Shown: piece after piece, positions 6,940 through 56,694 of the stretch
Position numbering within the stretch: the first letter of the stretch is position 1
Layout of the letters: the number at the start of each line of letters is the position of its first letter
Origin: Alphaproteobacteria bacterium
Lineage (GTDB): Bacteria > Pseudomonadota > Alphaproteobacteria > ATCC43930 > CGMCC-115725
DNA: 64,000 nucleotides
Direction of reading: 5' to 3'
NCBI GenBank assembly: GCA_028871455.1
Contig: JAGWNF010000003.1
Span: 124,001-188,000 of the forward strand
The notes under the pieces: model-generated
Told to the model about the DNA's origin: nothing
Databases searched by the model: none
Seen by the model: only the letters and a program-made list of their open reading frames with translations
Translations under genes and position numbers: made by a program

Positions 6940-7710
6940 CTAAAGCTCCAGCACCATGCCGTCATAAGCCGGCTCCACGCCCGCCGGCAGCGTGCGCCGC
7001 AGCGTCTCGTAATCGAGGCTCTCGTCCATGTGCGTCAGCACGGCGCGCCGCGGCCTTACCCGGCTGATCCAGTCCAGCGTACGATCGACGTGGCTGTGCG
7101 TCACATGAGGAGCCCGCCGGATGCAGTCGACAACCCAGGTGTCGACGCCGGCGAGCGCGGCGAAGGCCTGGTCGTCGAGGGTGAAGACATCGGTCGAATA
7201 GGCAAAGCCGCTGAACCGGAAGCCGAGCGTGGTTGAAAACCCGTGATCCTGCACGAACGGCGTGACCGCAATGCCGGCGGCAATGAACGACCCCTCGATG
7301 GCGTGACGCTCCAGCACCGGCTTGTAGTAATTACCCTCGAGGCCGGGCTTGAGCGGCGCAAAGACGTAGCCGAAGCGCCGCTCGATTTCGGCCAGGGTCG
7401 CGGGCGTGGCATAGGTTGGCAGCGGGGCCTTCATCATCCGGTTGACGCCCCGCAAATCGTCGATGCCGTGCATGTGGTCGGCATGGGCATGGGTGAACAG
7501 CACCGCGTCGACGCGCTGGATACCGGCATCGAGGAGCTGCGCTCGCAGATCGGGCGACGTATCCACCAAGATCGCCTTGCCGCCGTCCTCGACCAGGATT
7601 GAAACCCGCCGGCGCCGATTCTTCGGATTGGCCGGGTCGCACGCGCCCCAATCGCCGCCGATGCGCGGCACGCCCCAGGATGGACCGCAGCCCAAGATGG
7701 TGATCTTCAT
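6940..7710 (-). CDS. MBL-fold metallo-hydrolase (PhnP-like)
   Basis: 256 residues of metallo-beta-lactamase fold. The zinc motif is THAHADHMHG (about 74-83), with further ligands at HGFSTT, STD and THMDE. The N-terminus GCGPSWGVPRIGGDWGACD matches the PhnP-like subgroup that hydrolyses phosphodiesters. It lies directly downstream of tatD (6 bases), the usual alphaproteobacterial order metG-tatD-MBL. The exact substrate is unknown. Confidence 0.85.
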   Translation of the reverse strand: MKITILGCGPSWGVPRIGGDWGACDPANPKNRRRRVSILVEDGGKAILVDTSPDLRAQLLDAGIQRVDAVLFTHAHADHMHGIDDLRGVNRMMKAPLPTYATPATLAEIERRFGYVFAPLKPGLEGNYYKPVLERHAIEGSFIAAGIAVTPFVQDHGFSTTLGFRFSGFAYSTDVFTLDDQAFAALAGVDTWVVDCIRRAPHVTHSHVDRTLDWISRVRPRRAVLTHMDESLDYETLRRTLPAGVEPAYDGMVLEL

Positions 7711-54441: not shown

Positions 54442-55539
54442 TTAATTCGCGCGCCGGAGGGTTTCTAGCACATCCTCGCCGACGCTTTCGATGCCGATCC
54501 GGACGAAGCGCGGCGCCTGGCCGGGAGCCTCGATGCCGAGCGCGTTGAGCGCCGGCAGACCGTCGCCGCCGATCAGCGACGGCGCCTGGAACCAGGCGAT
54601 GCGATCGACCAGATCGGCGCGAACCAGCGCCGCCGCCAGCGTTGCGCCGCCTTCGACCAGGACGCGCGTGATGCCTTTCATGGCCAGCGCGCTCAGCGCG
54701 GCGGCGAGATCGGTCTCGCCGCCAGGCATGGCGGGAACGTCAATCACCTCGACGCCGCAGCCGGCCAATGCCGCGCGCCGCTCCCCGGCGATGCCGTTCC
54801 GCACGATGAACCAGGTCGGCGCGCGCCGCGCATCGGCGACGACGCGCGCCGTCAATGGCACGCGCAAGCCGCCGTCGATCACCACGCGCACCGGGCTGCG
54901 ATCGGTCAGGCCGGGCAGCCGACACGTCAATTCCGGGTCGTCGGCGATGACCGTGCCGCTGCCCACCATCACCGCATCGTGCGTCGTCCGCAGCAGATGG
55001 CTGCGGGCGCGCGCCGCCTCGCCAGTGATCCAGCGACTTGCGCCCGATGCCACGGCCAGCCGGCCGTCGAGCGAGGTGGAGAGCTTCAGCGTCACCAGCG
55101 GCCGGCCGCGTGTAATGGTCGAGAAGAAGCCGGCGTTGATCTCGGCCGCCGCGTCGGCGCTGACGCCCGACACGACGTTGATCCCGGCCGCACGCAACGC
55201 CTTCAGGCCTTTGCCGGCAACGCGCGGATCGGGATCTTCGACCGCGACGATGACCCGACGAATGCCGGCGGCAATCAGAGCGTCGGTGCATGGCGGCGTC
55301 TTGCCATGGTGGCAGCACGGCTCGAGCGTGACATAGGCGTCGGCGCCTTTGGTGGCGCGGCCGGCGCGCGCCAGCGCCTCGATCTCGGCGTGCGGTCGGC
55401 CACCCGGCTGTGTCCAGCCGCGGCCCAGGACGATCCCGTCCCTGACGATCACGCAGCCCACCGCCGGATTGGGCCAGACCCGGCCGAGACCGCGCCGCGC
55501 CAGAGTCAGCGCCGCGCACATCATGCCGGCGTCGGTCAT
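54442..55539 (-). CDS. ribD: Bifunctional riboflavin deaminase-reductase RibD
   Basis: 365 residues. The deaminase domain has HAE and PCCHHGKTPPC (zinc ligands). The reductase domain has LKLSTSLDGRLAVASGASRW and RVLVEGGATLAAAL. Catalyses the second and third steps of riboflavin synthesis. It precedes ribE and follows nrdR by 10 bases. Confidence 0.95.
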   Translation of the reverse strand: MTDAGMMCAALTLARRGLGRVWPNPAVGCVIVRDGIVLGRGWTQPGGRPHAEIEALARAGRATKGADAYVTLEPCCHHGKTPPCTDALIAAGIRRVIVAVEDPDPRVAGKGLKALRAAGINVVSGVSADAAAEINAGFFSTITRGRPLVTLKLSTSLDGRLAVASGASRWITGEAARARSHLLRTTHDAVMVGSGTVIADDPELTCRLPGLTDRSPVRVVIDGGLRVPLTARVVADARRAPTWFIVRNGIAGERRAALAGCGVEVIDVPAMPGGETDLAAALSALAMKGITRVLVEGGATLAAALVRADLVDRIAWFQAPSLIGGDGLPALNALGIEAPGQAPRFVRIGIESVGEDVLETLRRAN

Positions 55540-55549
55540 CTCGGAACCT

Positions 55550-56008
55550 TCAATCGCGGTCGGCGGTCAGGCGGTCGATGAACTCGCCGAAATCCTTCGC
55601 CTCGCGGAAATTGCGATAGACCGAGGCGAAGCGCACATAGGCGACGGGATCGAGCGTTGCCAGCATCTCCATCACCAGCTCGCCAACCATGTCGCTCTTG
55701 ATCTCGGTCTCGCCCGAGCTTTCGAGCTGGCGGACGATCGAGTTGATGGCGCGCTCGACGCGTTCGCCCTCGACCGGCCGCTTGCGCAACGCGATCTGGA
55801 TCGACCGTGCCAGCTTGTCGCGCTCGAACGGCTCGCGCTGGCCGTTCTTCTTGATCACCGTGAGCTCGCGGAGCTGTACCCGCTCGAAGGTCGTGAAGCG
55901 CGCGGCGCAGTTGGGGCAGAGCCGGCGCCGGCGGATCGATGCACGGTCGTCGGTCGGTCGCGAGTCTTTCACCTGGGTGTCTTCACATCCGCAGAACGGA
56001 CAGCGCAT
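55550..56008 (-). CDS. nrdR: Transcriptional repressor NrdR
   Basis: 152 residues. Zinc ribbon [15 protein letters not shown] ... [12 protein letters not shown], then an ATP-cone ([20 protein letters not shown]). Represses ribonucleotide reductase genes. Ribosome site AGGAGA. It lies 12 bases after the glyA remnant, keeping the ancestral rpiB-glyA-nrdR-ribD order. Confidence 0.96.
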
Positions 56009-56020
56009 CGGTTTTCTCTC

Positions 56021-56248
56021 CTAGGGATAGACGGGGAAGCGCTGGCACAGCGCCCGCACCCGCTGCTTGACCGCAGTCTCGACCGCACCATTGCCGCCGT
56101 CGCCATTGGCGACCAGCCCGTCAAGCACTTCGACCTGGTCTTGCTGCCGCTTGAGCTCGCGGCCGATCGCGGCGGCCACCTCGGGATCGGCCTCGGCGAG
56201 CGTCGCGGTGAAAAAGCGATTGGCGGTGGGCGCGGGTTTGGCGGTCAT
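56021..56248 (-). pseudogene. glyA: glyA remnant: serine hydroxymethyltransferase with an in-frame internal deletion
   Basis: A 75-codon frame. Residues 1-40 match the start of SHMT (FFTATLAEADPEVAAAIGRE, KRQQDQVE) and residues 40-75 match its very end (EVLDGLVANGDGGNGAVE, RVRALCQRFPVYP). About 350 residues holding the PLP lysine and active site are missing, with the frame kept. The join falls in a GTCGAAGT-like stretch that could be microhomology. Start and context are those of real glyA: ATG overlaps the rpiB stop (ATGA) and nrdR follows. The product cannot be active. SHMT is usually essential, so a second copy, or an assembly collapse, is implied. Confidence 0.85.
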
Positions 56249-56694
56249 GCGCTCGCCTTCGCCGGCGAAAATTTGGCGACGCGCCGGGCGTGGCGGCCGC
56301 CCTCGAACGGCGTCGCGAAAAAGATCTTGAGGCAATCCTTGGCGAGTTCGGGGCCGAGAACGCGTCCGCCCAGCACCAGGACGTTGGCATCGTTGTGCTG
56401 ACGCCCCAGCCGCGCGGTCAGGCCGTCGTGCACCAGCGCCGCGCGCACGCCGCGATGCCGGTTGGCCGCCATCGACATGCCGATGCCGGTGCCACAGATG
56501 AGCACGCCCCAGCGCGCACGGCCCTCCTCGATCGAACGCGCGACCGCCGCCGCGAAATCCGGATAATCGACGGGCTCGCGACTCTCGGTGCCGAGGTCGA
56601 GCACGTCGAAGCCGAGCGCGCGCAACTCAGGCAGCAAGACGCATTTCAGATCATATCCGCCGTGATCTGCGGCGACGGCGACGGTGTCGGCCAT
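56245..56694 (-). CDS. rpiB: Ribose-5-phosphate isomerase B
   Basis: 149 residues. Motifs VAADHGGYDLK, DLGTESREPVDYPDFA and GVLICGTGIGMSMAANRHRGVRAAL. The isomerase residue is the Cys in ICGTG. Interconverts ribose-5-phosphate and ribulose-5-phosphate. First gene of the rpiB-glyA'-nrdR-ribD run. Confidence 0.95.
   Translation of the reverse strand: MADTVAVAADHGGYDLKCVLLPELRALGFDVLDLGTESREPVDYPDFAAAVARSIEEGRARWGVLICGTGIGMSMAANRHRGVRAALVHDGLTARLGRQHNDANVLVLGGRVLGPELAKDCLKIFFATPFEGGRHARRVAKFSPAKASA

Follow-up and report, generated by a model that had tools for sequence, protein, structure and literature searches.

What has become of glyA, the serine hydroxymethyltransferase (SHMT) gene, in a genome where the slot between rpiB and nrdR that it fills in related alphaproteobacteria contains a frame of 75 codons? 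The locus lies in a window of 64,000 nucleotides, the whole stretch of DNA analysed here (assembly GCA_028871455.1, contig JAGWNF010000003.1, positions 124,001 to 188,000). The frame is open from ATG to TAG on the minus strand; the list of open reading frames gives it as 104 codons, counted from an upstream TTG. The features to which we refer below are:

56021–56248, minus strand: glyA remnant, an in-frame fusion of the first 38 and the last 37 codons of the slot glyA (75 aa)
56130–56135, minus strand: deletion join CAG/GTCGA, with TCGA common to both flanks in relatives (TCGAG in G002)
56245–56694, minus strand: rpiB, ribose-5-phosphate isomerase B, with an ATGA overlap with the remnant start
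55550–56008, minus strand: nrdR, starting 12 nt past the remnant stop
54442–55539, minus strand: ribD, the next gene on the same strand

Comparisons were made with three other genomes of the genus (G001, G002 and G003; four in all with the present genome, G000) and within a search set of 61 genomes, namely the genome itself and 60 relatives, the family genomes of other genera numbering 33. Both parts of the frame are recognisable as SHMT. Residues 3–42 match the start of the G003 slot glyA (75% identity, 60.5 bits, E 4.3e-16) and residues 38–75 its end (82%, 59.4 bits, E 9.8e-16), and these two values exclude a chance origin. When the product was searched against its own genome and the 60 relatives, it retrieved itself with 154.6 bits, and the full glyA genes of relatives were matched separately by its first and its last part. 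Since the conserved SHMT core is deleted, domain recognition is poor: Pfam, PF00464 included, gives nothing for the product at E ≤ 1, and NCBIfam yields a single weak hit to SHMT (13.1 bits, E 0.027, against a cut-off of 735). The relatives' codons 40–395 are absent, and with them the catalytic core including the PLP lysine; we take the PLP-lysine region and the greater part of the active site to have lain in the deleted segment.

In G001, G002 and G003 the same slot is occupied by a 432-codon glyA, so that an intact homologue lies at the same place in all three close relatives, as would be expected if the frame were a pseudogene. Relative to each of them the remnant lacks bases 118–1185 of glyA (1068 bp, or 356 codons), about four-fifths of the gene from its middle, and near the gene start one further codon is absent. 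The rpiB–glyA overlap of 4 nt (ATGA) is found in all four genus genomes, whereas the four family genomes compared from outside the genus have gaps of 16, 17, 33 and 71 nt, so that the overlap is a genus arrangement; the nrdR ATG comes 12 nt after the stop of the remnant, 11 nt after that of glyA in G003 and 12 nt in both G002 and G001. The earlier note had described the start and the end of glyA between rpiB and nrdR, with ancestral start overlap and nrdR spacing, and had attributed them to a deletion within the gene, all of which is borne out by the three relatives and the identical 1068-bp difference to each. It had also divided the frame into 40 and 35 residues; the ends are indeed fused in frame, but the actual split is 38 and 37 codons. 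Set beside the slot glyA of related alphaproteobacteria, then, the remnant shares both ends, the stop and spacing to nrdR and, within the genus, the rpiB overlap, and differs in having lost the central codons and the catalytic core.

Among the matches listed for the 60 relatives, none besides the frame itself covers residues 1–75. Weak matches that cross the join do exist, such as residues 2–64 in G059 (E 0.085, 33%, within a 1753-residue frame), and are taken as chance. A recurrent stump in Stakelama marina (L067) was considered and rejected, given that its match to residues 2–75 is the union of the two ends and that a full 456-codon glyA frame adjoins nrdR there.

It had been argued that a cell with such a locus needs another copy of the gene, and a complete second SHMT gene is present on another contig (C17:77808–78938), with no internal stop. 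Its product scores 562.3 bits against PF00464 (cut-off 27) and 631.7 bits against the NCBIfam SHMT subfamily (cut-off 335); the best solved relative is 3ecd (642.5 bits, residues 14–433), in the alignment to which the TTTTHKTLRGPRGG stretch is retained and the THK motif is present. A second glyA occurs in all four genus genomes, twice in G002, and in a tree of 58 SHMTs selected from fetched loci these five copies form one clade (support 100/100) and the genus's slot copies stand apart (100/91); the tree fixes no attachment point for the clade of second copies. These are full SHMT family proteins, 45–61% identical to the remnant at its two ends, and, unlike the slot gene, they are set beside aminotransferase, reductase and CoA-ligase-like genes and a divergent IclR-family gene.

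We therefore consider it very probable that the remnant is a pseudogene, produced by loss of the redundant housekeeping glyA copy in this lineage while the second SHMT was kept. Two kinds of SHMT gene occur in the genus, a housekeeping glyA in the slot and a second glyA heading a cluster that also holds a glyoxylate-type aminotransferase, two reductases and a pair resembling succinyl- or malate-CoA ligase. A single 1068-bp deletion in the G000 lineage would then have removed slot codons 40–395 (relatives' numbering) and the catalytic core with them, leaving the ends in frame, and was probably tolerated because the second SHMT exists. The gene content suggests that the whole cell would now draw its glycine and one-carbon units from the C17 copy, and that the remnant peptide is functionless, at most letting ribosomes run on to nrdR. 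Gene loss after duplication looks like a familiar kind of event rather than a new type of gene.

Beyond the genus, full SHMT copies were found singly in each of the ten genomes scored among the 33 of other genera, G028 having a partial second one. Outside those ten, the family genome G014 has two SHMT genes, on C8 and C10, and a second SHMT is thus not confined to the genus. In the best 29 outside matches to the second copy, drawn from 385 genomes of the class, the nrdR motif adjoins 26 and neither motif adjoins three. An aminotransferase motif adjoining glyA was found at none of the 29 loci (motif search, short flanks), so the sample holds no outside cluster of the second-glyA type. The two second-type copies of G002 lie on C83 and C91 (L055 and L056), the former almost the same as the G001 copy (dS 0.10). 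The slot copies of G001 and G002 differ by a dS of 0.55 in the core, and contamination of G002 is given as 5%; because the C83 copy is so close to the one in G001 although the slot copies differ more, it may derive from a G001-like contaminant.

Downstream of the second glyA in G000 stand a class V aminotransferase gene, a ketopantoate-reductase-like gene, a 2-hydroxyacid dehydrogenase gene and a CoA-ligase-like pair, and the divergent IclR-family gene precedes it. By sequence likeness a similar order extends to CoA-ligase alpha in G001 and to beta in G003, where frame picking listed an opposite-strand frame at the expected alpha position. For the aminotransferase the nearest NCBIfam model is BhcA (628.9 bits, below the cut-off of 650) and for the IclR-family protein it is BhcR (333.8 bits, below 350), while the 2-hydroxyacid dehydrogenase scores below every NCBIfam cut-off listed. 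The BhcA- and BhcR-like scores brought the beta-hydroxyaspartate cycle (with bhcB, bhcC and bhcD as its further genes) into consideration, and with both short of their cut-offs it is no more than a candidate. Scores for the CoA-ligase pair come from the G001 proteins alone: alpha reaches 358.1 bits, above the 336 required for succinate-CoA ligase, and beta 354.7 bits, below 370, with 286.6 bits for malate-CoA ligase, below 604. A 17-bp palindrome lies about 60 nt upstream of all five second glyA copies, with one base different in G003:

L051, about 7672–7688 (same place in L053, L055, L056 and L058): palindrome ATGGAAAACATTTCCAT

The palindrome fits what we take to be the IclR-type operator consensus and probably serves the divergent IclR-family regulator as its operator. 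Given its presence throughout the genus, the C17 glyA may be under a form of control that does not suit a constant supply. The cluster resembles part of the serine cycle of Methylobacterium, for which GlyA, Sga, Hpr and Mtk are given (PMC2948502), its neighbours being matched at family level with no pathway equivalog. Judged by these family-level matches, we read it as a cluster of glyoxylate and serine metabolism and leave the exact pathway uncommitted. Methylotrophy was weighed as a reason for the second glyA: TIGR03075 (PQQ methanol dehydrogenase) was above its cut-off in none of the four genus genomes (best 55.4 against 480.05); the 14 controls gave none either, so this search has no positive control.

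The proposal that the glycine-cleavage system serves as a bypass finds no support in this genus and was rejected for it: gcvP was above cut-off in none of its four genomes (drafts, one of them 85% complete, and considering the P protein only), where two partial, weak hits of some 22 bits appeared, versus 24 of the 39 family genomes that include these four. The gene was likewise below cut-off or absent in 11 of 35 family genomes of other genera, and it was found in 10 of 14 control genomes. With no gcvP found above cut-off in the genus, the surviving SHMT may be the sole source of one-carbon units from the conversion of serine to glycine and, as the draft genomes suggest, may be the chief one-carbon source altogether. 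Were it the only serine-to-glycine source, its regulation would be a sharp and testable question. Formate-tetrahydrofolate ligase was found in 27 of the 39 family genomes and, among the four of the genus, in G000 only, at C50:2–1669 (L177), near a contig end; going by these drafts, formate perhaps adds to the one-carbon supply in this species.

Selection on the remnant was assessed by pairwise dN/dS, for which 72 of the 75 codons were used and the first three dropped because of the one-codon gap. Values are 0.106 against G003, 0.228 against G002 and 0.214 against G001, and the same codons among the intact genes of relatives give 0.104, 0.172 and 0.302. There is no excess of amino-acid changes, and the lost constraint by which a pseudogene may be recognised is not seen; the absence of decay (0.106 against G003) also fits continued selection. 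On the G000 branch the dN of the stump is 0.056 or 0.068 depending on the reference (upper 95% bounds 0.105 and 0.119), far below the branch dS of 0.347 in the second glyA, so the stump has not drifted freely over the whole branch. Its own branch dS is poorly known, at 0.203 (−0.182 to 0.607) or 0.449 (0.189 to 0.985). These substitution rates point either to a recent deletion or to a frame that is still constrained. The open frame as such was dismissed as a sign of function: in a neutral simulation from the present stump (t = 0.345, substitutions only) about 36% of frames stay open.

If the frame is still constrained, one possible though rather doubtful reason is that the 75 codons have been kept as a short leader: ribosomes ending at the TAG would sit on the purine-rich site of nrdR, and an out-of-frame deletion would have lowered NrdR. 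The purine-rich stretch 5′ of the nrdR ATG, TAGGAGAG, starts at the remnant stop itself. Because the stop touches this ribosome-site-like stretch, coupling to nrdR is plausible, and the frame may have been kept for it; the 11–12 nt spacing in all four genus genomes, the rpiB overlap at the remnant start and a stump dN well below 0.35 agree with such a role. Against this, one deletion in three stays in frame by chance, and chance may be all that the frame-keeping reflects; a recent deletion accounts equally well for the low dN; and the stump is known from one species among the matches listed. A leader function is compatible with the loss of a redundant glyA, being an addition to the pseudogene account.

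A wider combination appears unlikely to us, namely that the stump is a kept leader cistron holding rpiB–nrdR translation together after its core was shed, with the housekeeping one-carbon supply, lacking a glycine-cleavage system, coming from the single SHMT of a regulated serine-cycle-like cluster.

The join itself bears both on how the deletion arose and on whether it is real. Up to CAG the remnant reads like the left flank of the relatives' genes, and from GTCGA onward like the right flank, which places the join at 56135/56134 or, given the shared TCGA, at any point in 56130–56135. A GTCGAAGT-type stretch had been put forward as the microhomology; a short shared stretch does exist, but once the flanks of relatives are compared it shrinks to TCGA in G003 and G001 and to TCGAG in G002. 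The deletion would accordingly seem to have occurred by illegitimate joining at TCGA. A longer direct repeat, GAGCT.ATCG, present in both flanks of G003, was rejected by comparison of the flanks, a deletion there being expected to leave QIELIVEV, absent from the remnant.

The same few bases weigh on the question of an assembly or binning artefact, in which a full glyA would be present in the actual cell or in the majority of its strains, its core having been skipped in assembly. That the G000 assembly is a draft of 51 contigs speaks for this explanation. The overlaps on which assemblies usually rest are longer than the 4–5 bases common to the flanks in relatives, an orphan SHMT core was found on no contig, and the missing length is divisible by three, which is weak evidence. 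A PF00464 search of the contigs of this assembly scored three candidates and had the C17 copy as its sole match. As the flanks share so few bases and the assembly contigs carry no stray core, we regard an assembly error as very unlikely.

That the remnant encodes a functional small protein, for example one binding the surviving SHMT through its SHMT ends, is hardly credible: the frame is open and its dN/dS is low (0.106, 0.228 and 0.214), but the same ends in intact relatives give comparable figures (0.104, 0.172 and 0.302), an open frame also survives in about 36% of the neutral simulations, no like match occurs among those listed for the 60 relatives, and the product has zero recognised domains.

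Loss of the redundant slot gene thus remains the preferred reading, and it makes the locus a clean case of a cell that dropped the housekeeping gene for a central enzyme and kept the copy in a specialised cluster. No published report of such a glyA remnant was found in the literature, among the matches listed. A parallel is tmk of Pseudomonas putida KT2440, where a 65-kb island is reported to break the gene and the substitute was proven by experiment (PMC10653934). In both cases the gene that normally serves an essential step is broken and another takes over, but the present lesion is a deletion inside the gene and its replacement is inferred.

The genus genomes, G000–G003, are also small, at 2.4–3.1 Mb compared with 3.7–7.4 Mb in 27 of the 33 other family genomes, the six smaller ones of other genera being at most 80% complete. 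Together with gcvP not being found in any of the four, this small size suggests genome reduction in the genus.
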